From contig MTMB02000001.1 of NCBI GenBank assembly GCA_002011085.2, forward strand, positions 477,820 to 541,819: a stretch of DNA of 64,000 nt, read 5' to 3'. Origin of the DNA: Candidatus Geothermarchaeum rappei. Lineage in GTDB: Archaea > Thermoproteota > Nitrososphaeria > Geothermarchaeales > JDFR-13. Position 1 is the stretch's first letter. The number at the start of each line of letters is the position of its first letter. This document shows, piece by piece, positions 20,063-39,814 of this stretch. The position numbers and the translations under genes were made by a program. The notes under the pieces are model-generated. The model was not told where the DNA came from. It did no database searches and was given only the letters and a program-made list of their open reading frames with translations.

Positions 20063-22585
20063 GAATCTCACATAGAGAGTTGAAAGTCAATTCAACTGAA
20101 ATAGCACAAAATTACTACTCTGTTGTGAATCTCACATAGAGAGTTGAAAGTCGACCTCAACCTTCTCCACGAGAATATCGTTATACCTATATGAATCTCA
20201 CATAGAGAGTTGAAAGATTTAATCTATAATGTTGTTTAACTATACGAATTATGTTATGAATCTCACATAGAGAGTTGAAAGTGATGATCCGCTTCTCCTT
20301 GACACTATACTTTAGATGGTCTATGAATCTCACATAGAGAGTTGAAAGAAACTGATAGAGATAGAGAAATATTCAATCGTATTGTAAGAATCTCACATAG
20401 AGAGTTGAAAGTTATATGCTACTCCATCGTTCCCATTCCCGCTGAGGTCTGGAATCTCACATAGAGAGTTGAAAGTAATCATAGAATTTTATGCCTTGGA
20501 TTGGGAAAGAGACTGTATAGAATCTCACATAGAGAGTTGAAAGCCAACGCCTTCTCAATATTCGTCTCAGGCAACGGAATAGGAATCTCACATAGAGAGT
20601 TGAAAGTTTTTGTTCTACCGTGGAAACCGCCATCTTATCGCCAAGAATCTCACATAGAGAGTTGAAAGTGATGATCCGCTTCTCCTTGACACTATACTTT
20701 AGATGGTCTATGAATCTCACATAGAGAGTTGAAAGAAACTGATAGAGATAGAGAAATATTCAATCGTATTGTAAGAATCTCACATAGAGAGTTGAAAGTT
20801 ATATGCTACTCCATCGTTCCCATTCCCGCTGAGGTCTGGAATCTCACATAGAGAGTTGAAAGTAATCATAGAATTTTATGCCTTGGATTGGGAAAGAGAC
20901 TGTATAGAATCTCACATAGAGAGTTGAAAGCCAACGCCTTCTCAATATTCGTCTCAGGCAACGGAATAGGAATCTCACATAGAGAGTTGAAAGTTTTTGT
21001 TCTACCGTGGAAACCGCCATCTTATCGCCAAGAATCTCACATAGAGAGTTGAAAGACCCCTAAGAGATCCAATATCTCTTTTATCATCTTTAACTTCAGA
21101 ATCTCACATAGAGAGTTGAAAGCCGAGATAAACCCCTATTCCAAAACTCAATATTATAAACAGAATCTCACATAGAGAGTTGAAAGGAAACGGTATTTAC
21201 ATATAAATAATATGTTGTTCCACTTTTGAATCTCACATAGAGAGTTGAAAGTTATCCCTATAGCCCCTGGTGTATCGGTAATGATAGAGTGCGAATCTCA
21301 CATAGAGAGTTGAAAGGGTATTTCCCCACCTTCTCCCCATGCTTGGTTATCAAGAATCTCACATAGAGAGTTGAAAGTGTTCACCAACCGTCTTAGTGAA
21401 CTCGGCTCCGTCATCAAGAATCTCACATAGAGAGTTGAAAGCGCTGATTATCCATAGTATATAGGCGAAGACACTCTTTGTGAATCTCACATAGAGAGTT
21501 GAAAGTTTACGGACGTCTTTGGGTATTGTGATTTTCCCTTGTTGAATCTCACATAGAGAGTTGAAAGTTAAGGCGTAGGGTAACAATGTATTTTGTAAGA
21601 CCATACTGAATCTCACATAGAGAGTTGAAAGCAGTATTGGCGTCTCTAAATCTGTGTCTGTTGCCGCTGAATCTCACATAGAGAGTTGAAAGTTTCCTAT
21701 TATTGAAGCCTGCCAATTTAAGATACCTGCTAGAATCTCACATAGAGAGTTGAAAGTCTTCTAACTCTAAGGCTATTTGTCTATCCGCACCAATTTTGGA
21801 ATCTCACATAGAGAGTTGAAAGTCTTTACAATCTCATCTCTCAGTTTTCTCCTCAGTATGAATCTCACATAGAGAGTTGAAAGTCAGTATCTCATGCCAC
21901 TTTATCTTTCTTCCGAACAAATCGGAATCTCACATAGAGAGTTGAAAGGAATGCCAGACTGCCATCGACGCTGTTTACTACGAAGTTCGAATCTCACATA
22001 GAGAGTTGAAAGGGAAAAGTATCATTCAAATATTCATGAAAACTCTCCCATGCTCTGAATCTCACATAGAGAGTTGAAAGACTCAAGCCCCTTGATTTCA
22101 AAGACATGCGTCCACTTACGAATCTCACATAGAGAGTTGAAAGATAAAGAGGACTATGAAGACCCCGCCCTCGAAAACATTATGAATCTCACATAGAGAG
22201 TTGAAAGTTTTAACCTCGATTTCAGAATAGGGATTTATCCTTCTCCTAAGAATCTCACATAGAGAGTTGAAAGAAGCGAGGCACAACCAAGACGCCAGTC
22301 GGGACATGATGAGAATCTCACATAGAGAGTTGAAAGAGATGGCTTTAATTGGTTTACCCTTACGAAGTAACTCCTGAATCTCACATAGAGAGTTGAAAGT
22401 TATACTCGATGCTCCGTTCCCACAGCCGTCTGAAGAAATGAATCTCACATAGAGAGTTGAAAGCACGACTGTTAGGATTGGTTCATTCATTTTTTATTCA
22501 CCTCTGAATCTCACATAGAGAGTTGAAAGGCGCTGATTTCGATGCCTCTGCGTATGAAATGGAATCTCACATAGAGAGTTGAAAG
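20063..22585 (+). CRISPR. CRISPR array 1: 40 copies of 24-nt GAATCTCACATAGAGAGTTGAAAG, 39 spacers
   Basis: Direct reading of regularly spaced identical repeats with unique ~35-45 nt spacers. Confidence 0.99.
20282..21055 (+). repeat. Tandem duplication of a 387-bp block of six spacer-repeat units inside array 1
   Basis: 20282-20668 and 20669-21055 carry the same six spacers in the same order. Confidence 0.95.
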
Positions 22586-22752: not shown

Positions 22753-23691
22753 ATGTTTTATGTAGATCCCTTTGAGCTTGATCGAATGTTACGATATATT
22801 AAGGATCTACATAAGGACGAGGTTATTAGTGACGAGTATAGGGGATGGAATTGGTCTCAAGGTAGGTTAACTCCTATTTCAACAGGCTTATATCTTTCAG
22901 TAAGTGAAATTGCCAATAGATATTGTTCAAATTATAGGGATATCTATCTGAGGAGAGTAGCTAGGGTCTATCCTCCAAAAACTTATAAGAGTGTACGAGG
23001 GCTATTCCTACATCAACTTAGTTCTGAAACTCTTATGTCGTTTAAGTCTTATCTCTATTCTAAAGGAATAGTTAGCGGATATAAGCTTGTTAAGGATATG
23101 CTGGATAAAGGTCCCACTATTATTGATGAACTTTCAAAGAAAATATCAATTAGGAAATACTTAACTTCTAGGGAGACTAAAGCCCTAAAGATGGAAGGCC
23201 TATCACTATATAGGTATCTAGTGATACAAGCCGCTTCAGCGTTGGATAAAGCAGTAAGCTCATCAAGGATGTTGGCTTTAGATGCTATTGTTCATAAAGT
23301 TATTCCAGATGTGGTTGAGATGGGAATCAATGGCCAAGAACTGGGTCTCTCAAAAGAGCTCCGCATAGATGTGTATCTAGGAAAGTTGATTGCTGAGTTG
23401 AAGACAGGGAGTAAAAGGGACTTCCACAAGTATATCTTAGCTGGATATGCTTTGGCTATTGAGGCTGATAAAGAGTTTCCAGTAGACTATGGAGTCGTTA
23501 TATACATATCTATAAAAAATGGGATGGTCAAAGTTGATAAAGATATGTTTTTTATAGGAGATGAGCTTAGAGAAGAGTTTCTTCAGATGCGTGATGAGGC
23601 ATTTGAGATCGTAGAGTCGGGTAGAGATCCCGGGATACACATCAACTGCCCTGAATATTGTATATATTATCATACATGTAGAGGAGGGTAG
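22753..23691 (+). CDS. csa1: Csa1 / Cas4-family CRISPR adaptation protein
   Basis: WNWSQGRLTPISTGLYLSVSEIANRYCSNYRDIYLRRV (Csa1-like N-terminus); C-terminal CPEYCIYYHTC cysteines; precedes cas1. Confidence 0.82.
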   Translation: MFYVDPFELDRMLRYIKDLHKDEVISDEYRGWNWSQGRLTPISTGLYLSVSEIANRYCSNYRDIYLRRVARVYPPKTYKSVRGLFLHQLSSETLMSFKSYLYSKGIVSGYKLVKDMLDKGPTIIDELSKKISIRKYLTSRETKALKMEGLSLYRYLVIQAASALDKAVSSSRMLALDAIVHKVIPDVVEMGINGQELGLSKELRIDVYLGKLIAELKTGSKRDFHKYILAGYALAIEADKEFPVDYGVVIYISIKNGMVKVDKDMFFIGDELREEFLQMRDEAFEIVESGRDPGIHINCPEYCIYYHTCRGG

Positions 23692-23697
23692 TGTAGC

Positions 23698-24714
23698 ATG
23701 AGACTTGTATTAAGTGGATACGGCTATTACATAGGCAAGAAGAGTGGGATGATAGTTATAAAAAAAGACGGTGATAGAAAGATGTATAGTGTTGGAAATA
23801 TAAGTGAACTTGTTGTTCATAGTAGAGGCATCCATTTTTCTGGTGAGGCGTTGGCCTTACTGATGAAACATGGTGTGAAAGTATATTTTATCGATAAACT
23901 AAGGATCCGTGGTAAACTAACACCCTTTAAAAAAGGATCCACAATCTTTATAGTTAAGCACCAGCTGAAGAACCAGGGAAGCCCCCGTGGAAATTATCTG
24001 GCGAAGCGTTTTATAGAAGGTAAAGTGTATAACCAAATTAGTTTTTTAAGGCTTCTTAGAAGGAGGTTTAGAAGGAAGAAAGATGTGGTCACTTCTCTCT
24101 CGACTAAAATCGAGTTGTTAAAGAATGTAATTGGAGAAATCGGAGAAATAGATTTATCCAGTAACATGTTTCGTGAACAAATTATATCTAAGGAGGGAGA
24201 GGCCTCGAGAATCTATTGGGATGCATTGTCGAGTCTACTCCCTGAAGAATATGGGTTTAAAAGACGTATGAAAAGATTTGACAAGCCGAAGGATCCTATA
24301 AATATTTCGTTAAACTATCTCTATACCCTCCTCGCTTCACAGGTTTGGATTGAGACGGAACTATGTGGATTAGAACCGTATATCGGGCTTCTTCATAAAG
24401 ACTCGACTAGGAGACCTGCTTTGGTAATGGATATGATGGAAGAGTTTCGTGTGTCTATTGTCGACAAACCCCTATTTACATATGTATTTAAGCATACTAA
24501 AAAACCGATGTCATGGTTAGAGAACGATGGTAAGCTAACTAGAAAGGCGGTTGAGACGCTTGGTGGATTATTCTTTAAAAGGATAGATGAGTCGGTGACA
24601 TTTCTAAATAGAAGTTATAAGTTAAAAACCCATATAGGGCTTCAATGTAGACGTCTAATCAAGTATCTGATGGGATATTCTGATGAATATATACCGTTTA
24701 AACTCACTAAATAG
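23698..24714 (+). CDS. cas1: CRISPR-associated endonuclease Cas1
   Basis: ISELVVHSRGIHFSGEALALLMKHGVKVYFID; SLNYLYTLLASQVWIETELCGLEPYIGLLHKDSTRRPALVMDMMEEFR. Confidence 0.97.
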   Translation: MRLVLSGYGYYIGKKSGMIVIKKDGDRKMYSVGNISELVVHSRGIHFSGEALALLMKHGVKVYFIDKLRIRGKLTPFKKGSTIFIVKHQLKNQGSPRGNYLAKRFIEGKVYNQISFLRLLRRRFRRKKDVVTSLSTKIELLKNVIGEIGEIDLSSNMFREQIISKEGEASRIYWDALSSLLPEEYGFKRRMKRFDKPKDPINISLNYLYTLLASQVWIETELCGLEPYIGLLHKDSTRRPALVMDMMEEFRVSIVDKPLFTYVFKHTKKPMSWLENDGKLTRKAVETLGGLFFKRIDESVTFLNRSYKLKTHIGLQCRRLIKYLMGYSDEYIPFKLTK

Positions 24715-24732
24715 GATGTATGGGATTGGATT

Positions 24733-25017
24733 ATGAATACTCTAGTTATATACGATATATCAGATGATGACCTGCGAAGTAGGGTGGCTCAGACATGCAT
24801 GGATTATGGCTTGGTAAGAATCCAGAAGAGCGCCTTCATAGGAAGGATAGACAGTCAAAAAAGGAAGGGGCTAGTCAGGATATTAGAGAGACTTATTAAA
24901 TCTCAGAATGATAATATACAGATATTTGTGATCTGTGATGCTGATATAAGGCTTAGGAAGATATTAGGTTTCTCTATGTATGGGGATAAAGAAGGAGACA
25001 CGGTATTTTTTAAATAA
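24733..25017 (+). CDS. cas2: CRISPR-associated endoribonuclease Cas2
   Basis: 94 aa, MNTLVIYDISDDDLRSRVAQTCMDYGLVRIQKSAFIG; follows cas1. Confidence 0.95.
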   Translation: MNTLVIYDISDDDLRSRVAQTCMDYGLVRIQKSAFIGRIDSQKRKGLVRILERLIKSQNDNIQIFVICDADIRLRKILGFSMYGDKEGDTVFFK

Positions 25018-25026
25018 GGTGGTTCT

Positions 25027-25620
25027 ATGTCGGAGGATCTAATTTATATCACCCCATCTGATGTTAAGGATTTTCTATATTGCCCATATATTATGTACTT
25101 GAAGAAGGTCTTAGGTGTTGATGAACCCTTAACAGAATTAATCAAGGAAGGGAGAGAAGCATATGAGCTTCAGAGGCAGAGATCCAAGAGGAGGAAGACC
25201 CTCTTGGGTCTCAAAAAAATAAAACCAGATAATATATGGTTTTCGGTTAAGCTTTATAGTAAGAAATATAGGATATACGGCGTCGCAGACGCCATTTACA
25301 AGGAGGGTGGCAAATACTCCATCCTAGAAATAAAATATGGTGAATATCGGGGAAGACTATCTAAAGACCATTTTTATCAGGCTATGTCATATGCCATGAT
25401 GTTTGAGGAGGAGTATTACAAGCCCGTTTACAAAATAACTGTTTATTACTTGAAAGATAATATCATGGTATCGAGGAGGATAACACAGTATCATAAAAAA
25501 CACTGGCTGAATATTATCAAAGATATCTGGAATATAGTTGACGGAGTATACATACCTAGCCCTATCGACATGGGAGGAAAATGTAGAGTATGCTTTTACA
25601 AGAAATACTGCTATAAATAG
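25027..25620 (+). CDS. cas4: CRISPR-associated exonuclease Cas4
   Basis: ITPSDVKDFLYCPYIMYLKK; ILEIKYGEYRGRLSKDHFYQAMSYAMM; C-terminal CRVCFYKKYC Fe-S cysteines. Confidence 0.93.
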   Translation: MSEDLIYITPSDVKDFLYCPYIMYLKKVLGVDEPLTELIKEGREAYELQRQRSKRRKTLLGLKKIKPDNIWFSVKLYSKKYRIYGVADAIYKEGGKYSILEIKYGEYRGRLSKDHFYQAMSYAMMFEEEYYKPVYKITVYYLKDNIMVSRRITQYHKKHWLNIIKDIWNIVDGVYIPSPIDMGGKCRVCFYKKYCYK

Positions 25621-25670: not shown

Positions 25671-25688
25671 GAATCTCAAATGGAGAGG
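25671..25688 (+). promoter_or_regulatory. CRISPR-repeat-like element overlapping the putative cas6 ribosome-binding site
   Basis: GAATCTCAAATGGAGAG matches repeat GAATCTCACATAGAGAG at 15/17; TCTC/GAGA stem retained; starts 26 nt upstream of the TTG start at 25697. Confidence 0.55.
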
Positions 25689-25696
25689 TAATCAAG

Positions 25697-26599
25697 TTGT
25701 CTATATTTGAGGTGGAGATAGGGATCTCCCCTAGGGAAGAGTATCGACTTCATAGATATACAGGTTATAGCATCCGATCCCTAGTATATACTCAGATTTT
25801 AAGGGCTTCTAATGCTTCAGTGGATATACATAAGGAGAAGGGTCTAAAACCTTTTAGAGTGACTCCGATATTCATTAAAGGAAATTCTGGGGAGGTAGAT
25901 AAAATAATATATGCGGGGAAAATAGACCCCAATAAAACATATTTCTTTAAAATAACATTATTAGGGAACAAACTCTTCTCCAGGTCTTCAAAAAACCTTT
26001 TTAAACTCCTATCTGAAGACACCATTACTCTAGATAATCATGTATATAACGTTGTAAGTAGGGAGTTTAAAATGATCTCAATCGAGGGCATAGCCTCTGA
26101 AAGTGATGGAGAAAATAAGATAACAGTAAACTACTTAACCCCTACGTATTTTAGAGCCCCAAGAACCTACAATATGGAGTATCGGGTCAATCAAATCCAC
26201 CGATGTAAATGTATATATAAAGAGAATCAAGATAGTATTTTCATACCCCTGCCATTACCAACGCTATTCCTCAAAAATATACTGAGGATATATCATAAGT
26301 ACATAGAAGAAATCAGTGAAGAGCAGCAATATAAATTGAGACAGTATATTAATGAAGACGGGATGGTCATCTCAGGTTTCCCGAAAGGCATTCGTACATG
26401 GGCTATAAAAACCTCAAGATATGAATTCAACATCGGGTTCACAGGTAGAGTTAACTATCATCTAAGAAGATTGAGTTTTATTGAAGATGTTAACATAATA
26501 ATAAATAACCTAAAAAAATTGATCCTAACAGCTCAATATACAAACGTGGGCGGGAACCGAACTGCTGGTTTTGGTTGGATAAAAACAAATATAAGATAA
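25697..26599 (+). CDS. cas6: CRISPR repeat endoribonuclease Cas6
   Basis: 300 aa; N-terminal YRLHRYTGYSIRSLVY; C-terminal G-rich loop NVGGNRTAGFGWIKTN; located in cas cluster next to arrays. Confidence 0.85.
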   Translation: MSIFEVEIGISPREEYRLHRYTGYSIRSLVYTQILRASNASVDIHKEKGLKPFRVTPIFIKGNSGEVDKIIYAGKIDPNKTYFFKITLLGNKLFSRSSKNLFKLLSEDTITLDNHVYNVVSREFKMISIEGIASESDGENKITVNYLTPTYFRAPRTYNMEYRVNQIHRCKCIYKENQDSIFIPLPLPTLFLKNILRIYHKYIEEISEEQQYKLRQYINEDGMVISGFPKGIRTWAIKTSRYEFNIGFTGRVNYHLRRLSFIEDVNIIINNLKKLILTAQYTNVGGNRTAGFGWIKTNIR

Positions 26600-26645: not shown

Positions 26646-26759
26646 CTTTAGGTGTCCATTGACATTGTTATTTTGACGGGTTGTCTTTTGTCACACATAC
26701 AAAATTAAAATATCCAAAAATATCATCCTATTAAATAGAAAAACCCAAAAACAATAACG
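26646..26759 (+). promoter_or_regulatory. CRISPR leader 2
   Basis: Same 114-bp sequence as leader 1. Confidence 0.9.
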
Positions 26760-27863
26760 GAATCTCACATAGAGAGTTGAAAGTGGTATAACAACCTCAA
26801 TAGTATAGCTATCCCGATAACTCCGAATCTCACATAGAGAGTTGAAAGCCATGGCTTACCAGTCGTCCTCCAACGCCAATAGACATAGAATCTCACATAG
26901 AGAGTTGAAAGCGTGAATAAAATGGATCTGGATGTATATAGATGTTAAATGCAGAATCTCACATAGAGAGTTGAAAGTCTCCTCATCAACCCTGATAAAA
27001 ATTTGAAAAGGAAGTTTGAATCTCACATAGAGAGTTGAAAGTGCAAGGGGACATATCGGATAAAGATTATAGAGAAACAGAATCTCACATAGAGAGTTGA
27101 AAGAGCAGGACTTTCGAGCCAATGTTGTTTATTGTCAGTATTTTGAATCTCACATAGAGAGTTGAAAGTTATCTATCATCCACCTGGTCGTAAAAGGCAA
27201 ATTAGCCTCAGAATCTCACATAGAGAGTTGAAAGATTATGCTTGCAATCGGTTGAATAGCAAATGATCTTGACTGTGAATCTCACATAGAGAGTTGAAAG
27301 TTGTTCACCTTAGAAGCCTTTGCTCCAATGATATATCAGAATCTCACATAGAGAGTTGAAAGTTGTGATAGTTGACTTATTACCTGGCTAGTCTTCTTCG
27401 AATCTCACATAGAGAGTTGAAAGATTATGCTTGCAATCGGTTGAATAGCAAATGATCTTGACTGTGAATCTCACATAGAGAGTTGAAAGTTGGAGATAGC
27501 TTCAGAGCCATTGAAACAAACAATCAGAATCTCACATAGAGAGTTGAAAGTGCTATTGACTTCTCCCTTCTCTATAAAGGCACAGGAATCTCACATAGAG
27601 AGTTGAAAGACATATAAGTAAGGGGATAATCTCATATAGAGAGGCTAGTATGAATCTCACATAGAGAGTTGAAAGTAGCTGGATATGTAGCCCGTGTTAT
27701 CACTTGATACGGAATCTCACATAGAGAGTTGAAAGTTGGGACGTTTATCACGGTTCGGTCCTTCACTTCCCAATCACGAATCTCACATAGAGAGTTGAAA
27801 GGTATTTGGTTATCTCAGTCTCATCCAAGACATGGTAATGAATCTCACATAGAGAGTTGAAAG
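26760..27863 (+). CRISPR. CRISPR array 2: 18 repeats, 17 spacers (one spacer present twice)
   Basis: Same 24-nt repeat as array 1; spacer ATTATGCTTGCAATCGG... at 27235 and 27424. Confidence 0.99.
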
Positions 27864-28148: not shown

Positions 28149-28529
28149 ATGATATCTGGGGAGGCTATACCTAAAAAAATTTATGATATGGCCGTTGAAG
28201 CCGGGACTTCTCTGAAGAAATATGGTGTTAAGAAGGATCAGTTAGAGAAACTTATTCAAGTATACCTAAACTCCTCCGATAGGGTTAGTAGCCTAATGGA
28301 TCTTATTGTGTTCGTCTCTAGACAGGTGGGTAGGGGTCCGATGAAAATGGATCCGGCTAAGATTATTGTTAAACACCTTAATGAATTCAGAGAAAAATAT
28401 GGCCATGACCCAAATCTCCTCGATTTTATAGTTCAAAAATACCTTTATTTGACAAAATGGGTTTACGAATCTGAGGTTAAGAGATTCATTAGGAAATTTG
28501 ATGAGTTCGTTATTGAGGTATTAAGATAG
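28149..28529 (+). CDS. Putative type III small subunit (Csm2/Cas11-like)
   Basis: 126-aa predicted mostly helical protein; first gene of the type III operon. Confidence 0.5.
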   Translation: MISGEAIPKKIYDMAVEAGTSLKKYGVKKDQLEKLIQVYLNSSDRVSSLMDLIVFVSRQVGRGPMKMDPAKIIVKHLNEFREKYGHDPNLLDFIVQKYLYLTKWVYESEVKRFIRKFDEFVIEVLR

Positions 28530-28546
28530 GGGGTTGGTGATTATAG

Positions 28547-29266
28547 TTGACGTATGGGGATCTAGATACTTTGGATATTCTGAATATTATTAAGCTGAAG
28601 ATCGAGGTTATATCTCCTCTATCCATAAAGGCGGGAAGCAGCATTGTAGGTCCTATTGATAACCCCATTGTACGGTTGGGAGGGAAGCCTTTTATCCCTG
28701 GTAGTAGTTTAAAGGGTGTATTAAGAAGTATTGTGGAGAAAATCGCCGGGTCAATGGATTTAGAGTTGCCTGATAAACCATGTAACATTTTAGGTGAGGT
28801 TGATACCGAACGTAATAGAATGGATAAAATGGGGAAGGAATATCGTCCATGTGTAGTATGTAGGATCTTCGGTGGTCCCACATACGCTTCACATATCTAT
28901 GTTTATGACATGCTACCTGTTAACTATAATGTTGAGGAAAGGGTCCGAGTAGCCATAAGTAGGGTTACTGGTAGTGTAGAAAAGGGGCCTTTCAAAGAGG
29001 AGTATGTAACTCCCGGGTCAGTTTTTAGGGGGGAGATACATATAGTAAATATCGATCTCACTTCCGACTCTATTGAGGCCCAATTGTTTAACAGTGCTAT
29101 TCAGATGTTGAACAAAGGCTTGGTTTCTTTAGGAAGTAACAAGAGTATTGGCATGGGTAGGATCAAGGTCTCTATTGAATCTGTGAAGAAAGCCTATTTA
29201 TCTAAGGGTATGGTGAGGGAAGAAGATATTACAGATGAATTCCTTAGGTGTCTTGGAAATGGATGA
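28547..29266 (+). CDS. csm3: RAMP protein, Csm3/Cas7-like, putative catalytic Asp retained
   Basis: GPIDNPIVRLGGKPFIPGSSLKGVLRS; CRIFGGPTYASHIYVYD; GxGR loop GMGRI. Confidence 0.82.
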   Translation: MTYGDLDTLDILNIIKLKIEVISPLSIKAGSSIVGPIDNPIVRLGGKPFIPGSSLKGVLRSIVEKIAGSMDLELPDKPCNILGEVDTERNRMDKMGKEYRPCVVCRIFGGPTYASHIYVYDMLPVNYNVEERVRVAISRVTGSVEKGPFKEEYVTPGSVFRGEIHIVNIDLTSDSIEAQLFNSAIQMLNKGLVSLGSNKSIGMGRIKVSIESVKKAYLSKGMVREEDITDEFLRCLGNG

Positions 29267-30122
29267 GATAAACTGGTATAGGCATGACATCATCTATAGA
29301 CTTTGTATGATGTCTTTAAAACTGAGGAACATATCTGCAATACGCATTGGAGCCAGTAAGGAGGATGTGCTGTTCTCACCTGTCAACCTACCTATTATTA
29401 GGATAATGTTGGGGGATAATATAACTCCATATATTCCAGGCAGTAGTATTAAGGGTGTCTTCAGGAATGTTATAGAAAACATATTAGTGGATAGTGGCCA
29501 CAGAGATGGAAAACTTGAGTCTGAAGATCATGTTATGAAAATCTCCCAAATGATTTCAAGCCTTTATAAGGAGAACCGATCGTATTCTACCGAGGAGGTC
29601 TTGAAGCTGGTTTCTAGATTCGGCTTAGTGTCAAAAGTATTTGGAGCCCCCTCTTACTCGTCGCTGATAGAATTTAGTGACTTTTATCCTGCGAATAATG
29701 TAAAAATAAAAACAGGGGTTAGAGACGGGGTAGCTATAGAGAGGAGGTATGGGAGTGTGAAACATTTTTATAAAGTAGAGTATATCGAGCCAGGTTCGGT
29801 TTTCGAAGGAACAATATTGATTAAAAATCCTCCCAATTACGTTATAGGTATGGTATTCGACGTAATCCATAATTATATTAACACCGGCTTAGTAAGGCTT
29901 GGCGGTTTTAAGAGTAAAGGTTTTGGAAAAGTGGAGATGGAAGTATATTCTGTGGATATCAGGTTATTAAAGAATGCCGTGTTATCCCAGGTGGATAAAG
30001 AGACTCTAAACCCGCTTGATAAATTCGATAAAGAGATATTTTTTGATAGAGAGGATCTGGAGTCCTTTATAGATTCTTCAATAGAGGTTTGGCGTAGCTA
30101 TGTCGAGGAAAATCGAGATTAA
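29235..30122 (+). CDS. RAMP protein, Cas7-like (Csm3-like family)
   Basis: SPVNLPIIRIMLGDNITPYIPGSSIKGVFRN; SKVFGAPSYSSLIEFSDF; GGFKSKGFGKVEM; overlaps previous ORF so start uncertain. Confidence 0.78.
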   Translation: MNSLGVLEMDEINWYRHDIIYRLCMMSLKLRNISAIRIGASKEDVLFSPVNLPIIRIMLGDNITPYIPGSSIKGVFRNVIENILVDSGHRDGKLESEDHVMKISQMISSLYKENRSYSTEEVLKLVSRFGLVSKVFGAPSYSSLIEFSDFYPANNVKIKTGVRDGVAIERRYGSVKHFYKVEYIEPGSVFEGTILIKNPPNYVIGMVFDVIHNYINTGLVRLGGFKSKGFGKVEMEVYSVDIRLLKNAVLSQVDKETLNPLDKFDKEIFFDREDLESFIDSSIEVWRSYVEENRD

Positions 30123-31068
30123 AAGGATAAAGCCTAAGGACAGAATAATATCCAGTTTAGACGGTAAAGTTCTGTACATTGATATAGGAGCTGTAGTGGC
30201 CGATGAGAGTGTTGTCTCCGTTGGAGGAGTATCCGAATATCTTTCCCCCGAAGCTGTCAAAGAATATATTTATCGTGGCGTTGAGAGTAGAAAGATTTTC
30301 GATAAGAGCCCTGAATCCATAATACATGAGATAAGAAGGCTTTTTGAGAGAATCCCTAGGAGGAGGGTGGCCTCAGGTTTTTTCAGAACAGGGGGGCGAT
30401 ACGCTATTCCTGGGACTGCTTTTAAGGGTGCGGTCAGGTCGAGAGTAGAATATAAGTTTATTCCTAAATCATGTGGAGAAGGTGTCTATAAGAGCCCTTC
30501 ATGTTACTCTGTTTTTGGGAATGTACGGACTAAATCCAAGAGGCACATGAAGTTTTATAGGGTCGATGAATCTATAAAAAGATATCCCTGTAGATACGAC
30601 AATAAACAATTTAGATCAGTCTGTCTAGTTTGCGATCTATTTGGGGCTCCTAAATTAGCTTCCCGAGTACTTTTCTCCGACCTTATAATGTCCCATGGGA
30701 AGGTTGAGAGGCTTGATGTAGGTAGGTTTATAAAAGATGTTGAAGTCGCTCTTCCAAAGTCGGAGTTTAAAGGATCCATAGTAGGCTATAACATGAGCAT
30801 GGAAGATGCTGGCATATTATTTCTGGGGTTGGAGGCCTACACCAATCGAAGAATACTGTTGGGTAGATATAAATATAGGACTCTCGAGACCCCTATCCAA
30901 TATAGAGGCAAGAGATTTCGATTCGGCATTGTGGAGATTAAAATTAACAAAATTGTATATGGGGGGAGAGAGCGGGGAGTAAATAAATTTATCGAAGAGG
31001 CTAGGAAGGAGATTATCAAGTATGTTGATGAAGGTTTTCTAGACATAGATATAGGTGTTGTCTCATGA
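30100..31068 (+). CDS. RAMP protein (Csm5/Cas7-like)
   Basis: RYAIPGTAFKGAVRSRVEYKF; CLVCDLFGAPKLASRVLFSDL; in type III operon. Confidence 0.75.
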   Translation: MSRKIEIKRIKPKDRIISSLDGKVLYIDIGAVVADESVVSVGGVSEYLSPEAVKEYIYRGVESRKIFDKSPESIIHEIRRLFERIPRRRVASGFFRTGGRYAIPGTAFKGAVRSRVEYKFIPKSCGEGVYKSPSCYSVFGNVRTKSKRHMKFYRVDESIKRYPCRYDNKQFRSVCLVCDLFGAPKLASRVLFSDLIMSHGKVERLDVGRFIKDVEVALPKSEFKGSIVGYNMSMEDAGILFLGLEAYTNRRILLGRYKYRTLETPIQYRGKRFRFGIVEIKINKIVYGGRERGVNKFIEEARKEIIKYVDEGFLDIDIGVVS

Positions 31069-31373
31069 GCGCTACTAGAATCGATAAAGATGAATTAAAT
31101 AGTCTTTTAAAGAAGGGATGTGGTAAGGCACTAGTATATTCTGTGGATCTTAGTGTAGCAATTAAAATGGTTGGGGACATAGATCCGGACAAGGATTTCC
31201 ACATGGTAATATTCCTAGATAAGGATGATGTAGGACATGCCATCTATAAATATAATGGGCTATTCTATCATGTCATTTTAAGTAGTGAGTTCCTAAATGC
31301 TTTTGTAAACAGGTCTTTTATAGCCGGTAAAGGTAAAAACATGAGGATTAAGGAGTTTTTAAGGGAGGGGTAG
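31065..31373 (+). CDS. Unknown 102-aa protein in the type III operon
   Basis: ORF overlaps upstream RAMP stop and ends 2 nt before cas10; no recognised motif. Confidence 0.7.
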   Translation: MSATRIDKDELNSLLKKGCGKALVYSVDLSVAIKMVGDIDPDKDFHMVIFLDKDDVGHAIYKYNGLFYHVILSSEFLNAFVNRSFIAGKGKNMRIKEFLREG

Positions 31374-31374
31374 A

Positions 31375-34203
31375 ATGAGTGCAATAACTATTCACCCGAC
31401 TTATTTGGTAAAAGGGTTTGTCATCCCTATTAGAGAGGATAAAAAGCCCAGCTATACCTATGTATTTGATGGAAATAGACGTAAAACGTTATATAACGCC
31501 TTGTCGAAAATCCTAGAAACACTCCTTAAATTCTATGTTGATAAGAAGAAGGTAGATGGATTATCATCCGCAGAGGAGCTTGTTGAGTTTACAAACCTCG
31601 TCTACCTCGTCCTTAGAAATTCATTATATAAGGGAATACAGGGAGGCGTCATACCATCGCCCTCGACAATATTCATCGGGTGGTATATATATAGGGCCGT
31701 CGAAGGGGCTGACGCCCCTCCCTTATACACCTCTGAGGGAATCAGACATTTAATTGATACGAAGAAGGGCGATATTTTTCTGGTCGACATATTATATAAA
31801 AAATATGATGAGCTTATTACTCTACTGAATAACTCGATAGATACCTATAAAGATCTCGATTCTCTCCTCGATGACCTTCTATTCTTTCCTGCCGACTCTA
31901 GAGTAGGATCTAATACATCTAGTCTATTGATCCACACTATAATGGTGGGAGGCCTAGCGTTATCCCTTTATCTCGAGAGTGTTTCCTCTCCAGCTAATAG
32001 AGATCTAGCTTATCTAAAGGTGTTATCCCTATTCCATGATGTAGGTAAGTTATTGAGCATTAGACATCACGAGTCTATATCCGCAGGGTTTATAAAGAAG
32101 CTTTTTGGAAATGTGGTCAAAAAAGGCTCAGAAGCTGATGCTGTAATCGAGGAAGTTGTTGAGACCCTGGCTAACAAAGATTCGTTGTTTAGGAGGAAGG
32201 AACTATATAAGTTCTATAAAGATGCTGATCGAATGGCTGCGGCAGCAGATAGGATGAAGAATCTAGTCAAGATACTATTAAGTGATAAAAGTAAGAAGAG
32301 GCTATATGAGATGATTAGCCGCAAGCTCGGTGGTGACATAGGGTTTGACGAGGGTTTTGAGAAGATATTTACTGACATGAGTTTCTGGGATGAGATTTCA
32401 CGTGATGTTGATCTTTATCGGGAGTTGACAGAGGACTTTTGTCTAAACGCCTCTAAAGTAGGGGAGGTCCATGGGTATGTAGATAAAGATGTATTATCCA
32501 ATGATGTAGAGGCAGTTTTCATAGATATCCAGTCGATACAGAGTTACGTTAGGAGTAGCGATATACGCAGCATGATAGGGGGTAGCTTCCTCATAGATAT
32601 GATAATATATGCCTCCATACCTGAGTATATCATGGACAATCTGGATCTGGGTATTGAAAATATATGGCTTAACGGAGGTGGGAACCTTCTATTAACCGTC
32701 CCCAAAAAACTTGTGGATATGCTAAGCGATAATCTAGCTAAAATGATTAGGAATGCGTATTATATAGATCTCTCTATAGCATCTTCTCCTTTATATAGTG
32801 ATTTAAGACTTATATTTGATACTCTCGGGACACGGCATAAGGAGTTGAAGCACACAAAAATCAGTGGAGTAGGCATATATCCCTCTTTTGAGGAGAAGTG
32901 TGGATTATGTGTAAATAGACCCGCTACAAAACCATTGAAAAAAGATGTTGAAATATATGTGTGTGATACCTGTAAGCTTAAATACGATGTGGGAAGTGTT
33001 TTACATTTTTGGTCTAAAGTAGGGAGAATAACCACCCTATTTGGTCAAGAAAATATATTTGAACAACTTAAATCTCTGGATGAGGCACGTAGACTAGACT
33101 TTATGGAGTTAATCGCTAATGGCACTTTAGACCCAAAGAATCTATCCAGGGAGGCCATGAACATTGCGATGGTCAAGTTTGACGGGGCTTTAATAGGTCT
33201 CTTAAGCTCTTCTTCCCTATCTCTCACAGACTCTTTTGAGAGAAGCGTTAGGATTGATATGGCTGTTAAAGAGAGTATAAATAAGTTTCTAGACTATGTA
33301 AGAGATAATATAGACGGTGGTCTATATGCTTCAATACTCCTGGGTATCATATATGTAGGTGGAGATGATGGGGCCATTATTATGCCTTCATATATCGCTC
33401 CCTTCTTTACAGTCTATGTTGCCAATGAATATTATTTAAACATGGGAGGTAAGTCGGTATTATCCTTCTCCATCATAGGTGTAAAATACAAGCATCCTGT
33501 TTATCATCTTTATCAAGCAGCTTCATACCTACTTGATTCACACGGTAAAAAATTAAACAGAGGAGAGTTGGAGCTGGAGCATGTGTATGATATAAGATAT
33601 AAGGTATACAACGAGTTGTACAATGAAAAAATACTTGAATACGGTGGGTTCAGAGGGTCGCTTGCCTTCTACGCGTCAGACACAGGCATAGTATCTACCG
33701 AAACTCTAGAAAACATCCTTCTTTCACTAGAAAAGGATAGATCAAGTATCCAATACTCTACACCCTATTTAATATCTGATGATGAAGTTAGAAGTATATT
33801 TAAACTGTTTACAACGGTATCAAAGGCAATAGATGCAGATAGTGTCATCGACAATATACAGGAAATAAGTTTAGATAAAATAGGTAGGTTGATAAAAAAC
33901 CTACAAAGATCATTCACAAAGGTTAAACATGGGCGTGCGGAGCAAGGGGCTTTAAAGAGACTCAAAGAGGTTAAAAAAAGGTTGTTTAACTCTGTAAGTA
34001 TTAGGATTGCTTATTCAAAAGATATTAGAAGTAGGGTGATCCACTCGATCTCATATGTCTCTAATGTTGATGACATCGAGTCGGTGTTTGGAATCAACGA
34101 TCTTAAAAACATCATCATAAGCCACAAGGATTTTCTAGGGCTATGCTCTGCCGACCTGCTTTTAATGCTTAAACTTACCGGAGGTGGGTTAGGTGGGATA
34201 TAA
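31375..34203 (+). CDS. cas10: Cas10 (Csm1-like), HD nuclease plus Palm/cyclase domain
   Basis: HD motif LSLFHDVGKLLSIRHHES; zinc-finger CGLC...CDTC; IYVGGDDGAIIM (GGDD cyclase motif). Confidence 0.93.
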   Translation: MSAITIHPTYLVKGFVIPIREDKKPSYTYVFDGNRRKTLYNALSKILETLLKFYVDKKKVDGLSSAEELVEFTNLVYLVLRNSLYKGIQGGVIPSPSTIFIGWYIYRAVEGADAPPLYTSEGIRHLIDTKKGDIFLVDILYKKYDELITLLNNSIDTYKDLDSLLDDLLFFPADSRVGSNTSSLLIHTIMVGGLALSLYLESVSSPANRDLAYLKVLSLFHDVGKLLSIRHHESISAGFIKKLFGNVVKKGSEADAVIEEVVETLANKDSLFRRKELYKFYKDADRMAAAADRMKNLVKILLSDKSKKRLYEMISRKLGGDIGFDEGFEKIFTDMSFWDEISRDVDLYRELTEDFCLNASKVGEVHGYVDKDVLSNDVEAVFIDIQSIQSYVRSSDIRSMIGGSFLIDMIIYASIPEYIMDNLDLGIENIWLNGGGNLLLTVPKKLVDMLSDNLAKMIRNAYYIDLSIASSPLYSDLRLIFDTLGTRHKELKHTKISGVGIYPSFEEKCGLCVNRPATKPLKKDVEIYVCDTCKLKYDVGSVLHFWSKVGRITTLFGQENIFEQLKSLDEARRLDFMELIANGTLDPKNLSREAMNIAMVKFDGALIGLLSSSSLSLTDSFERSVRIDMAVKESINKFLDYVRDNIDGGLYASILLGIIYVGGDDGAIIMPSYIAPFFTVYVANEYYLNMGGKSVLSFSIIGVKYKHPVYHLYQAASYLLDSHGKKLNRGELELEHVYDIRYKVYNELYNEKILEYGGFRGSLAFYASDTGIVSTETLENILLSLEKDRSSIQYSTPYLISDDEVRSIFKLFTTVSKAIDADSVIDNIQEISLDKIGRLIKNLQRSFTKVKHGRAEQGALKRLKEVKKRLFNSVSIRIAYSKDIRSRVIHSISYVSNVDDIESVFGINDLKNIIISHKDFLGLCSADLLLMLKLTGGGLGGI

Positions 34204-34828
34204 CATTAAATTAACAGTAGTCGGAAAGACTAGAAAGCTATTAAATATAGGGGGGCCAGTAATAGATCCTTCTAGAGGGGACAATCCATTCTATAGAATA
34301 ATAGATTCTGAAGGAGAATCTTATTTATATATACCAGGGAGTACATTAAAAGGCGTTCTTAGAAAGTCTGCTTTGAAAGTCGCTGGGTTATTGGGTTATA
34401 AAGTGGGGTTTAGTGTACATCCGGATATTATGGATCACGAGGATATTGTCTCAAAGGTTTTTGGAGCACCGGGGCTAAAAAGTAAGATAATAGTGTCGGG
34501 AGCATTATTAAGTGAAATGAGTATAGTGCCGGAAATCTATACACATATCAGAGTCGATGAAAAGACTGGTATTGTAGACGAAGGAGCCTTGTTTGAACGT
34601 GAGTATCTGCCTATAGGTACATCTTTTGAATTCGAGATAAATGGTTATGACATGGATATTGAGGAAGCTAGGCTATTGCTGGCTGCTTTATATGAGATGC
34701 GATACGAGAAGCTGGGTAGAGGGGGTTTAATTGAAGTCTCACTTAGGAAGACGGGCTGCCATATCCCAAATGAATTGTTGGGAGATGATGTTGTGAGGAT
34801 GATATATGATGAACTTGCTAAGGAATAA
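34193..34828 (+). CDS. RAMP protein, Cas7-like
   Basis: GDNPFYRIIDSEGESYLYIPGSTLKGVLRK; SKVFGAPGLKSKIIVSGA; 211 aa. Confidence 0.75.
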   Translation: MGYNIKLTVVGKTRKLLNIGGPVIDPSRGDNPFYRIIDSEGESYLYIPGSTLKGVLRKSALKVAGLLGYKVGFSVHPDIMDHEDIVSKVFGAPGLKSKIIVSGALLSEMSIVPEIYTHIRVDEKTGIVDEGALFEREYLPIGTSFEFEINGYDMDIEEARLLLAALYEMRYEKLGRGGLIEVSLRKTGCHIPNELLGDDVVRMIYDELAKE

Positions 34829-35891
34829 TATAGATGATCTCTCTCTCTATAGGGTTGAGATTAGGGTAAGAACTCCTCTGATCTTGTCGGGAGAGCCTCT
34901 TGGCAGGATCTGGGCTACAAACATTAATTTTATACCTGGCTCGACATTTAGGGGAGCTCTATTATCATATATGTATAACCATAGTCATCTATCTAATAGG
35001 GTCGTATCCGAAGCATTTTCACCAACCGTATATTTTCAACCCTTACTACCTGTGTATATGGATAAAGAGTGTAGACATGCTGATCCACTTATATATAAGT
35101 GTAAAATATGTGGAGAGACTGTATTCTATAGACCCCCTCTCGATGACTATATATCATTCCCAAGTGAATGCAACAATGGTCACTATGGAACGTTAAAGAG
35201 TGTGGGAGGGGCTTTGATAGTTGACAAGGATGTTGTGAATGTGATAAGATATGTGTATATCGAGAGTGTAGGGATAAACAAAGTCACCGAGACATCGGAA
35301 AAAGGGATGTTATATAGCTACTCAGCAATCGCTCCCAACACTAGATTCAAAGGCCTAGTCTTAGATAGAGGAGGTCTAATACAAGAGTATATAGATAACT
35401 ATGGTTATCCATCTACAATATATTTGGGAAGAGGGATCTCGAGAGGCTTTGGATGGTGTGAGTTGAATATAAATCAGATAGATGTCGGAGACTACATTAA
35501 TAATCGGGGGTCTCAAATCCATTCATACCTAGAAAAGTCGAATTATCTAGTATTGAGGGGTAAGTCCCCTCTTGTCTTCATGGATAGTAAAGGGTTTACG
35601 CCTAAACCAAAGCTGGTTGTTAAAGGTTTAGAAGAGCATATCCCGTTTAAATATGTAGATAAAAACTATTTACTTGTTAGAGGACTGTACCATTTAAGGG
35701 GTTTTGGGGCGAATAATCTGCCAAAAGCTCACATCTCGGCTGTAAAGCCTGGGAGCATATTCTTTTACAAAATTAAGTCACATGATAAACTAGATGATCT
35801 CGTGGATCATCTAGTTGAATTGGAGTTGCTAGGTCTCCCGCCTTATAACCATATAGGTTTAAATTATCTTGAGGTGCTGGTATGGTGTTAA
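34806..35891 (+). CDS. RAMP protein, Csx10/Cas5-like (type III-D)
   Basis: TNINFIPGSTFRGALLSYMYN; internal CKICGETV zinc-binding-like pair; YLGRGISRGFGWCEL. Confidence 0.65.
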   Translation: MMNLLRNNIDDLSLYRVEIRVRTPLILSGEPLGRIWATNINFIPGSTFRGALLSYMYNHSHLSNRVVSEAFSPTVYFQPLLPVYMDKECRHADPLIYKCKICGETVFYRPPLDDYISFPSECNNGHYGTLKSVGGALIVDKDVVNVIRYVYIESVGINKVTETSEKGMLYSYSAIAPNTRFKGLVLDRGGLIQEYIDNYGYPSTIYLGRGISRGFGWCELNINQIDVGDYINNRGSQIHSYLEKSNYLVLRGKSPLVFMDSKGFTPKPKLVVKGLEEHIPFKYVDKNYLLVRGLYHLRGFGANNLPKAHISAVKPGSIFFYKIKSHDKLDDLVDHLVELELLGLPPYNHIGLNYLEVLVWC

Positions 35892-36787
35892 AATATAAGG
35901 AGTCTCTCCAAAATAGATGGATACTAATCATCCGGTTTAAACTGGCTTCCCCACTACATGTAGGACGTGGGCAGGAAGGTATTTACAATAGAATAGTATT
36001 TTCTAATGTAGAGGGAGGACTTCATCCTATTGTGCCAGCGTCAAGTATTAAGGGAGTATTTAGAGACTTGTCAACTAAGATAGCTAAGAATTTGGATTTT
36101 AGAAAGCCTCTAACTAATAAAATTGTGAATAATCACGTTATAGACAGTCATTTTCCAGTAGAAAAGGCTGATGATGATACTAATAGAGTTAGGGTCTATA
36201 GAGAAACCTATTTCCAAGGATATGATGGCATCGATGACGATGAATTTAAGCTGGCATTGGCCAGGGAGTTGTCATCGGGCCTAAATACCTCTCTAGACAG
36301 TTTTCTAGAGCTGCCGGTTGAAGAGATTATAGAACTTTATCTATCTATGAAGTGTCCGATATGTCGGTTATATGGTGCTCCCGGCCTTTCTTCAAAGACA
36401 ATTTTTTTAGACGCTGTAGTCAAAGGTTCCTATCAAGTCGGGTTATATACGGGGACCGCGATTGAGAGGAAGACGGGAATCGTAAAAGCGAAGCATCTAT
36501 ACAATGTAGAGTATGTATATCCTAAGGGAGAGACCTGGGTCGACATACATATATATATCGATAATATGGATGAAGATGAGGAGCTTCTAATAAAAAGTCT
36601 GATAGGCCTAATTAAGGCAACTGGATTGAGGCTAGGAGGATTGAGGTCAAGGGGATATGGCCTTCTGAAGCTGGATATTGAAAATTCCTATGCTGTCAAG
36701 ACTATTTTTGACGGAGGGCCCGAGGAAAACATCACCAAGCTCCTTAGAGGGGGGACTAGAGTCTCACTAGAAAGTTTATTAGGCTAA
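35882..36787 (+). CDS. RAMP protein, Cas7-like
   Basis: LHVGRGQEG...HPIVPASSIKGVFRDLS; CPICRLYGAPGLSSKTIFLDA; GGLRSRGYGLLKL. Confidence 0.77.
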   Translation: MVLKYKESLQNRWILIIRFKLASPLHVGRGQEGIYNRIVFSNVEGGLHPIVPASSIKGVFRDLSTKIAKNLDFRKPLTNKIVNNHVIDSHFPVEKADDDTNRVRVYRETYFQGYDGIDDDEFKLALARELSSGLNTSLDSFLELPVEEIIELYLSMKCPICRLYGAPGLSSKTIFLDAVVKGSYQVGLYTGTAIERKTGIVKAKHLYNVEYVYPKGETWVDIHIYIDNMDEDEELLIKSLIGLIKATGLRLGGLRSRGYGLLKLDIENSYAVKTIFDGGPEENITKLLRGGTRVSLESLLG

Positions 36788-36791
36788 TATT

Positions 36792-38381
36792 TTAATCCTC
36801 TCGCGTATCTACCATCTCTCTCCAGTTTTCAACCATTATCTCGATATATTCTCTTAATAAGCCTATATGGGCTATAAAATTCCTTTTTGTATGATCTCTA
36901 CTTCTACTATCCTCCACCAGACTTACAAAATCCCTAGGTTTGAAACTATCTACATACCGGAGTCTAATACTCTCCTTTATTTTCTCGATAGTCTTATCCA
37001 TACTGATATCTTTTTTCCACCTATCCTTTTTTATCATATCATTTAATATTCTCCATCTATCCATATTTGAAAGCACGACACTTTTATAGTTTTCATAGAC
37101 GACTCTTCCAATCTCGCCATATAATTCTCTCTGTACAAATGAGGAGACAACATTTGAAAACTTAGACAAAACCTCATCTGTAATAACCTCGATATCTGAG
37201 AAGCTGACGCCCTCAGACTCCACATCTCTTTCGATATATCCCTTCTCATTTAGAAAACATTTTATGCCTAACCCAACTGACAATGTCTTTAGGATATCTA
37301 TATATTTGAGGGCAACGCCTTTTTCAAAGACATCTCTAGTCTTAAGAAGAAGGGTGTCATCATCTATTTTTATAGGCTTGGCTTTATCAAGCATCTTATC
37401 AATAGTTGAAATCATGTTAGTAATATATCTTAAATTCGCCTTAGAAGGGTCGAGCTTTTTAAAATACCTTGGGATCATATCCAATAAGCCTAGGGGTAGA
37501 GAATGCTTTAGGCTATAATAGACAATTCTTACATAATTCGTGTAACCCTCACCGACTTTATCCAGAGTTAAAATATTCCTATAAAATCTTTTCTCATCAT
37601 TGGATAATCCCCTAATACATGACTCGGGTTTACTAATCACCTTATCTGGAATCTCTTTTGGAATCATCTCCGAGATATTTTCAAATCTTGAGCTCTCAAT
37701 AGTTACAATCCTATTTATCCGCAGCATTTTAATGCCATATGTATGTGGGTCTGAATTGAATATTCTCAGAATGGTGTTTCTCCTATTCAATTTCATTAAC
37801 ACGATACTCTCATACAAGTCTCTAGCCGCCATACTGATTATAACAGGCATATAATTTATCCCATGTGTCAAGTCCAGCCAAACTTCATCTATATCTGGAT
37901 TCTCAATACATATTTTAAGGGTATGTAGATATACGTATAGCCTCACAAGCTCTAAATCACCGTCAAAAACGATATTTATATCCTTTTTTTTCAAAGTGAA
38001 CCTCCCTATCCCGGGAGTAACCACAACATTCAAGGCTTTTCTCAGAACCTTACTAATATCCACCCCAGGATTCTTATTTCTGAAAATTTCGTTGAATTCC
38101 CACATCTTCTCACAGATATAGTTTCTGACTCTATCCCTAATCTCATTATAGCTCAGTTTAACCAGATCGCCAGCATTAGTGACTCTATCAACTATTAAGC
38201 TCTCAGGGACAACAACACAGATTCTGGTAACTTCATATCCGTTTCTTATAGCATGATATACAAGTGGTAATATCGTAGTTTTAGATATAAGTCTATCTCC
38301 TGTATCCTCTACAAGATAAGTTACCTCTTCCCAATGCGGTTTTCCCCAAGGAGCTATTATCAATACCTTATTTCTCATCAT
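36792..38381 (-). CDS. csx1: Csx1-family CARF-HEPN protein (putative cOA-activated RNase)
   Basis: N-terminal VLIIAPWGKPHWEEVTYLV CARF-like; WLDLTHGINYMPVI; C-terminal RNFIAH (R-x4-H HEPN motif). Confidence 0.78.
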   Translation of the reverse strand: MMRNKVLIIAPWGKPHWEEVTYLVEDTGDRLISKTTILPLVYHAIRNGYEVTRICVVVPESLIVDRVTNAGDLVKLSYNEIRDRVRNYICEKMWEFNEIFRNKNPGVDISKVLRKALNVVVTPGIGRFTLKKKDINIVFDGDLELVRLYVYLHTLKICIENPDIDEVWLDLTHGINYMPVIISMAARDLYESIVLMKLNRRNTILRIFNSDPHTYGIKMLRINRIVTIESSRFENISEMIPKEIPDKVISKPESCIRGLSNDEKRFYRNILTLDKVGEGYTNYVRIVYYSLKHSLPLGLLDMIPRYFKKLDPSKANLRYITNMISTIDKMLDKAKPIKIDDDTLLLKTRDVFEKGVALKYIDILKTLSVGLGIKCFLNEKGYIERDVESEGVSFSDIEVITDEVLSKFSNVVSSFVQRELYGEIGRVVYENYKSVVLSNMDRWRILNDMIKKDRWKKDISMDKTIEKIKESIRLRYVDSFKPRDFVSLVEDSRSRDHTKRNFIAHIGLLREYIEIMVENWREMVDTRED

Positions 38382-39192
38382 ATCCCCCGGATCTTACTAT
38401 TATATCCTTATACCACATTCCTCTTTCACCGAGTTTTAGGATGAAACCTTCTCTCACTCTCCGCTTCTCAATTAGGCCACTTCTCTCCAATTCAGATAAG
38501 TACATCCTGTATTTATCAACATCTTCTGGAGATAGAGAGCCCTCTAAAACTTTTACCAATACTTCTATATAGTCTCGTGGATAGGGTATCAATGGAATTT
38601 CGATAACACTTAAATCTTTAAGAGGAGGATATAGAAGTCTTAAAAACTCATCCCTATGTTTAGAGAAATATTCATTTTTCTCATTCTCTGTTTTCATCAT
38701 TGAGAACATTCTTATCTTGTTCTCCAACCTAACAAGCATATCATTATATAAAGCTACCCTCTTGTTTATCACATGGAAAACCCTAGAAGGTCTTATAAAC
38801 ATGGCGGTCAAAGTACATATAACCACCATTGTTTTTCTACCACCAGCGATATTTATAAATATCTCATCAGTATCCTCTGAGTTAACCATATTAACTAATG
38901 TTGTGAAAACAGTCTTTAAGAAATCCCTACTTGACTCTTCATCATAAATGTCAGGATAATTCACGATCAAACGCCTAATCCTCACCTTCGGATCTATGTA
39001 TTTAACAGCCCTATCAATTATCTCCATCCCGCCTAGAACTAAATCATCCATCGAGCCGATCAAAACTATACTCGAAGGATAGTAACGGGTTCTCTCTCTA
39101 ATAAACAAAAAAAACTCGGTGACAACTGATGGAGTGAGGCCCAATGGGCATATAATAATAACTTTATCTTTCATACGAACATCCCTCAACAA
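38368..39192 (-). CDS. CARF-domain protein with C-terminal winged helix (Csa3- or ring-nuclease-like)
   Basis: IIICPLGLTPSVVTEFFLF; IFINIAGGRKTMVVICTL; C-terminal YLSELERSGLIEKRRVREGFILKLGERGMW. Confidence 0.65.
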   Translation of the reverse strand: MLRDVRMKDKVIIICPLGLTPSVVTEFFLFIRERTRYYPSSIVLIGSMDDLVLGGMEIIDRAVKYIDPKVRIRRLIVNYPDIYDEESSRDFLKTVFTTLVNMVNSEDTDEIFINIAGGRKTMVVICTLTAMFIRPSRVFHVINKRVALYNDMLVRLENKIRMFSMMKTENEKNEYFSKHRDEFLRLLYPPLKDLSVIEIPLIPYPRDYIEVLVKVLEGSLSPEDVDKYRMYLSELERSGLIEKRRVREGFILKLGERGMWYKDIIVRSGGYDEK

Positions 39193-39398: not shown

Positions 39399-39814
39399 GA
39401 ATCTCACATAGAGAGTTGAAAGTGTGAAGAAAGAGGGAGAATTCTTACGGGCATAATAGTTTCGAATCTCACATAGAGAGTTGAAAGGAACCGCCCAACA
39501 TAATTCATCACGAGATTAACTATATCCTAAGAATCTCACATAGAGAGTTGAAAGGAAGACTGGACAGCCTATTACTTCTCTACAACCAAATCTCTTAGAA
39601 TCTCACATAGAGAGTTGAAAGTAGTTTCGATAATCATACTCGGACGGACGGTCTTCAGAATCTCACATAGAGAGTTGAAAGATAGATTTTTATTGTAGTA
39701 TTGTCATTAACTTCTAACTCTGAATTTCACATAGAGAGTTGAAAGTCTAACGCTGTGGACTTCTCCCATCTCCCTCAGGATTTTCTCCATGAATCTCACA
39801 TAGAGAGTTGAAAG
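39399..39814 (+). CRISPR. CRISPR array 3: 7 repeats, 6 spacers; sixth repeat carries a substitution (GAATTTCAC)
   Basis: Same 24-nt repeat; variant copy at 39722-39745. Confidence 0.98.

Follow-up and report, generated by a model that had tools for sequence, protein, structure and literature searches.

The 14th spacer of the second CRISPR array in a 64,000-nt stretch of the Candidatus Geothermarchaeum rappei genome (the window analyzed here) carries a near-copy of the 5′ two thirds of the repeat that flanks it on both sides. Coincidence emerged as slightly the best among the explanations for spacer 14 that we weighed: somewhat probably, the repeat likeness arose by chance in a spacer that was acquired from ordinary invader sequence.

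The window contains three CRISPR arrays on the plus strand, with 40 (array 1; positions 20063 to 22585), 18 (array 2; 26760 to 27863, enclosing 17 spacers), and 7 (array 3; 39399 to 39814) copies of a common 24-nt repeat, GAATCTCACATAGAGAGTTGAAAG; between them they hold 62 spacers, 55 of which are distinct. The leader of array 2 (26671 to 26759, plus strand) is identical to those of arrays 1 and 3 over ~90 nt. Also encoded on the plus strand are the adaptation proteins Csa1 (Cas4 family), Cas1, and Cas4 (22753 to 25620), a Cas6-like protein (25697 to 26599; TIGR01877, E = 1.1e-9, under the curated cutoff), which is the likely processor of these repeats, and effector components comprising RAMP (Cas7-like) proteins and a Cas10/Csm1-like protein (28149 to 36787), which we assign to type III only and to no finer subtype. 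Csx1-like (CARF/HEPN) and NE0113-family CRISPR accessory proteins are encoded on the minus strand (36792 to 39192). Array 1 includes six repeat-spacer units (20258 to 21055; 387 bp) in a tandem duplicate of 100% identity, such that spacers 4 to 9 recur as spacers 10 to 15, and spacer 8 of array 2 is present again as spacer 11. The sole imperfect repeat of the three arrays is the second-last of array 3 (GAATTTCACATAGAGAGTTGAAAG; 39722 to 39745).

Spacer 14 of array 2, ACATATAAGTAAGGGGATAATCTCATATAGAGAGGCTAGTAT (27610 to 27651, plus strand), was read directly as a 42-nt unit with a perfect repeat at either end, and its length falls within the local spacer range of 32 to 45 nt. It sits fourth from the distal end of the array and is an older spacer of array 2. 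Its core, AATCTCATATAGAGAG (27628 to 27643, plus strand), is identical at 15 of 16 positions to positions 2 to 17 of the repeat and keeps the TCTC/GAGA stem. The original prediction, which placed a near-copy of the repeat in this spacer, is exact in sequence, coordinates, and degree of identity. The match takes in the hairpin half of the repeat (16 of its 24 positions) and would end one base beyond the predicted Cas6 cut, as placed by the usual rule of an 8-nt handle. Where the repeat would go on with TTGAAAG, the spacer reads GCTAGTAT (27644 to 27651, plus strand), which bears no likeness to a crRNA handle. The TTGAAAG end is the most constant part among the related 24-nt repeats surveyed, and since it is replaced by GCTAGTAT in spacer 14, the likeness is not to a complete, working repeat. 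A mini-CRISPR array, whether or not it has a leader, has two repeats around a spacer, and spacer 14 holds only one partial repeat.

It is very improbable that spacer 14 is a double unit formed by merging, with a decayed repeat between two short spacers. The arrays do rearrange, as the 387-bp tandem block of array 1 and the recurrent spacer of array 2 attest, but the segments on either side of the core would measure ~17 and 1 to 2 nt, against spacers of 32 to 45 nt, and every other repeat of array 2 is perfect. This spacing and the perfect neighbors rule out a degenerate internal repeat; the earlier judgment that a degenerate repeat with short flanks is unlikely was borne out, there being no room for two normal spacers.

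To gauge the part played by chance, spacers were scored against the repeat in ungapped alignments (+1 for a match and −2 for a mismatch). Spacer 14 scored 13, with the runner-up among the 55 distinct spacers at 7, and 150 shuffled repeats gave a maximum score of no more than 10. In a more stringent control, the 55 distinct spacers were compared on both strands with 1,500 24-mers drawn at random from the window; 2 of these 24-mers scored at least 13 (p ~0.0013), so that chance would give such a match in one of every ~750 loci of this size. The match is above the chance typical of a single locus and within chance given the many loci and kinds of features that were read. By chance alone, a 24-nt repeat offers nine offsets at which a 16-nt match could lie, so the placement of this one over the hairpin half would be only weak extra evidence.

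A base rate was obtained from a survey of 102 arrays, with 3,437 distinct spacers and 76 repeats, located around cas1 genes of the phylum and in near relatives. Compared with an ordinary spacer of an archaeal array that has 24-nt repeats and lies beside a type III system, spacer 14 is the same in length, flanks, position, and AT-rich unique sequence; what sets it apart is that 15 of 16 positions agree with the repeat core, a score equaled by only one other of the 3,437 spacers. Two spacers tie for first place with an own-repeat score of 13 (spacer 14 and L002:956), whereas none of ~34,370 control comparisons with unrelated or shuffled repeats attained it. Own-repeat scores of at least 11 were observed 7 times, with about 1 predicted by the controls; this excess persisted upon removal of spacer 14 (Fisher p of 0.001 to 0.02, depending on the control) and upon removal of spacer 14 together with two spacers that have the look of slippage or end effects (Fisher p of 0.03). 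Some of the surveyed spacers may be truly repeat derived, with spacer 14 a leading candidate. If the likeness is a coincidence, the survey yields the base rate, namely, 2 of 3,437 spacers being this alike to their own repeat.

The tied spacer, L002:956-997, is an internal one that includes part of its own repeat (reverse complement, TTTTTATTTTTTATTTTTTGAATCTCAAAAAGGTAAGCGTAA versus GAATCTCAAAAAGAGAATTGAAAG); the AT-rich sequence ahead of the repeat part looks like a leader-repeat junction but corresponds to none of the leaders examined. In another surveyed array (L099:930-967), the reverse complement of a spacer, CCCTCCAAGGGTTTCTACAA, is identical at ~17 of 20 positions to its own repeat, CCCTCTAAGGATCTCTACAA. 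No convincing phage protospacer was found for the repeat-like spacer of either L099 or L158, and a search of the literature on spacers resembling repeats returned no match.

The search for a source of spacer 14 covered the host, its relatives, and collections of mobile elements. The host genome beyond the arrays contains no match to it, and a self-targeting reading was not upheld. BLAST searches of 60 relatives, extended to another 399 genomes of the phylum, detected neither a protospacer nor a variant-repeat source, and the phage and plasmid collections likewise provided no source. The exact core, with its variant T, is present in no array among 401 genomes of the class. An exact-match scan of the GTDB species genomes with the 18-mer ATAATCTCATATAGAGAG recovered only four scattered, unrelated bacterial contigs and no array. 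In IMG/VR, the core has 20 matches, the repeat core 15, and the left half of spacer 14 13, all with unrelated flanks; these counts are of about the magnitude that so large a collection would be expected to yield with a random 16-mer. No IMG/VR match was obtained with the right half of spacer 14 or with back-translated patterns of its two open frames. Hence, neither of the origins that had been proposed, a mini-array on a virus or plasmid and a variant source array, was encountered in the 401 class genomes, the GTDB 18-mer scan, or IMG/VR; the result that the original prediction had named as refuting, namely, a protospacer located in some ordinary gene of a virus, was likewise sought and not found. 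Phage searches with the spacers of array 1 (33 distinct) similarly gave nothing convincing, so the collections probably lack the viruses of this host, and the failure to find a hit for spacer 14 says little.

Two candidate matches were set aside. One relative (G001) matches the second half of spacer 14 with an E-value of 0.012, which is at the level of chance over 61 genomes, and the flanks differ. A second genome (G184) has two exact copies of the core, both of which continue as AGAACATCCAC and lie outside any array. In the latter genome, AATCTCATATAGAGAGAGAACATCCACA occurs twice on one contig, 11 kb apart (L070 and L071, at about position 1500, minus strand), in otherwise different surroundings, and may be a small repeat dispersed in that genome.

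Real descent of spacer 14 from a repeat-like element, be it an array end or a repeat mimic of a virus or plasmid, is a serious, if less probable, alternative to coincidence. Were it true, array ends or viral repeat decoys could become spacers without autoimmunity, and the targeting of RNA anti-CRISPRs by crRNAs would become testable; only a source in a viral stand-alone repeat or Racr-like decoy would be really interesting.

It is unlikely that the source was a virus or plasmid bearing a stand-alone repeat or Racr-like element in which the hairpin half was kept and the crRNA handle changed. Stand-alone repeats and mini-CRISPR arrays are reported in archaeal (Sulfolobales) viruses, and stand-alone repeats are also reported in plasmids (PMC6858448). 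Spacer 14 likewise presents repeat-like sequence, possibly of a mobile element, but in this case a host spacer encloses it, it spans only two thirds of a repeat, and no carrier virus is known. The RNA anti-CRISPR (Racr) RacrIF1 requires its stem-loop but tolerates changes to its 8-nt handle (PMC10651486); spacer 14 retains the stem-loop half to one base beyond the expected Cas6 cut and combines it with an altered handle of the sort tolerated there. However, no such element was seen in IMG/VR, phages, or plasmids, and type III has 0 occurrences in the main text of PMC10651486. Moreover, the coverage of 16/24 is below 90% of the repeat, under the full match of the published finder of solitary repeat units (SRUs), for which 50 to 90% coverage is a partial match only. 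If the source were such an element, the crRNA of the host would be directed against a decoy that imitates the host repeat. That spacer 14 records immunity against a virus- or plasmid-borne repeat decoy facing the type III system, a crRNA pitted against an RNA anti-CRISPR, is quite unlikely; the altered handle and flanks would then let the host target the decoy without a full-length match to its own repeats.

The leader-distal end of an array of another strain or species is a doubtful source. By this account, spacer 14 would consist of the final stretch of the last spacer in that array, a terminal repeat that had decayed and lost its 3′ end, and a bit of trailer. Decay of this type is found in a relative (L003) whose last repeat, GAATCTCATAAAGAGAATGCAGAG, retains the 5′ 18 nt and has lost the 3′ end, just as spacer 14 keeps the 5′ two thirds and lacks the remainder, and the variant core falls within the range of repeats of the group (e.g., GAATCTCATAAAGAGAATTGAAAG). 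Spacer 14 differs from such an array end in that the repeat part lies inside a spacer, and no matching array end is known. Against this source, the host's own arrays terminate in perfect repeats, the core is in no array of the 401 class genomes and the GTDB 18-mer scan gave no array, with the absence of a GAATCTCATATAGAGAG array applying to the searched genomes only.

The original prediction further proposed that the insert would create an extra Cas6-like hairpin and that the crRNA could pair with repeat-containing DNA or RNA. The hairpin can be drawn, and at 37°C, its energy equals that of the repeat (−3.0 kcal/mol for both, via the TCTC/GAGA stem). It fares less well in context: within the repeat-spacer-repeat unit, the core of spacer 14 prefers pairing with the next repeat (−9.0 kcal/mol), and at 70°C, without protein, neither the spacer 14 nor the repeat hairpin is stable. 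A role for the extra hairpin as a processing signal was rejected for want of distinctiveness, as eleven other repeat-spacer-repeat units disturb the hairpin of the next repeat more. The proposed pairing was judged too short for interference, with 16 of 42 nt alike and one mismatch among these. Given that only these 16 of 42 nt are able to pair with antisense host repeats, an attack on the host arrays would not be expected, and such an attack by crRNA 14 is implausible.

Frame +2 of spacer 14 is open and reads HISKGIISYREAS. Its codon score of 2.46 is equaled or passed by 63% of the coding 42-mers of the genome and by 24% of shuffled ones, so that the frame is a weak fit to an ordinary gene. 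When the 55 distinct spacers (20087 to 22561, 26784 to 27839, and 39423 to 39790) were assigned their best coding frame by codon usage, 40 fell on the minus strand and 15 on the plus strand (p of 0.001, with an uncalibrated strand call). RNA-targeting type III systems need crRNAs that are antisense to transcripts, and such a minus-strand bias would make most of the crRNAs antisense to transcripts.

Several lines of evidence speak for coincidence: the normal length of spacer 14, its perfect flanking repeats, and a handle end without likeness; the missing variant-core array in the 401 class genomes and the GTDB scan; and the open frame +2 with a typical codon score, together with the rate of ~1/750 for random 24-mers. 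Hints against it come from the small p of ~0.0013, the 0 of ~34,370 controls, and the excess at scores of at least 11, and the location of the match on the Cas6 hairpin half and the failure to find an ordinary protospacer also count against it. If coincidence is the right explanation, spacer 14 would be a normal single spacer whose source was an ordinary invader that has yet to be sequenced, and perhaps a coding region of it that reads HISKGIISYREAS; transcription would start from the shared leader, Cas6 would cut at the flanking repeats, and the crRNA would be loaded like those of its neighbors.

Another repeat-like element is situated outside the arrays, at 25671 to 25687. This sequence, GAATCTCAAATGGAGAG, matches the repeat core with 2 mismatches just upstream of the Cas6-like open reading frame (TTG start at 25697) and overlaps the likely Shine-Dalgarno sequence of the latter, GGAGAGGT. 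Nothing similar was found when a counterpart was sought before the Cas6 genes of distant relatives. The expectation for hits of this kind is at most 0.21 over the whole window, and GAATCTCAAATGGAGAG could be a putative Cas6-binding leader for autoregulation.
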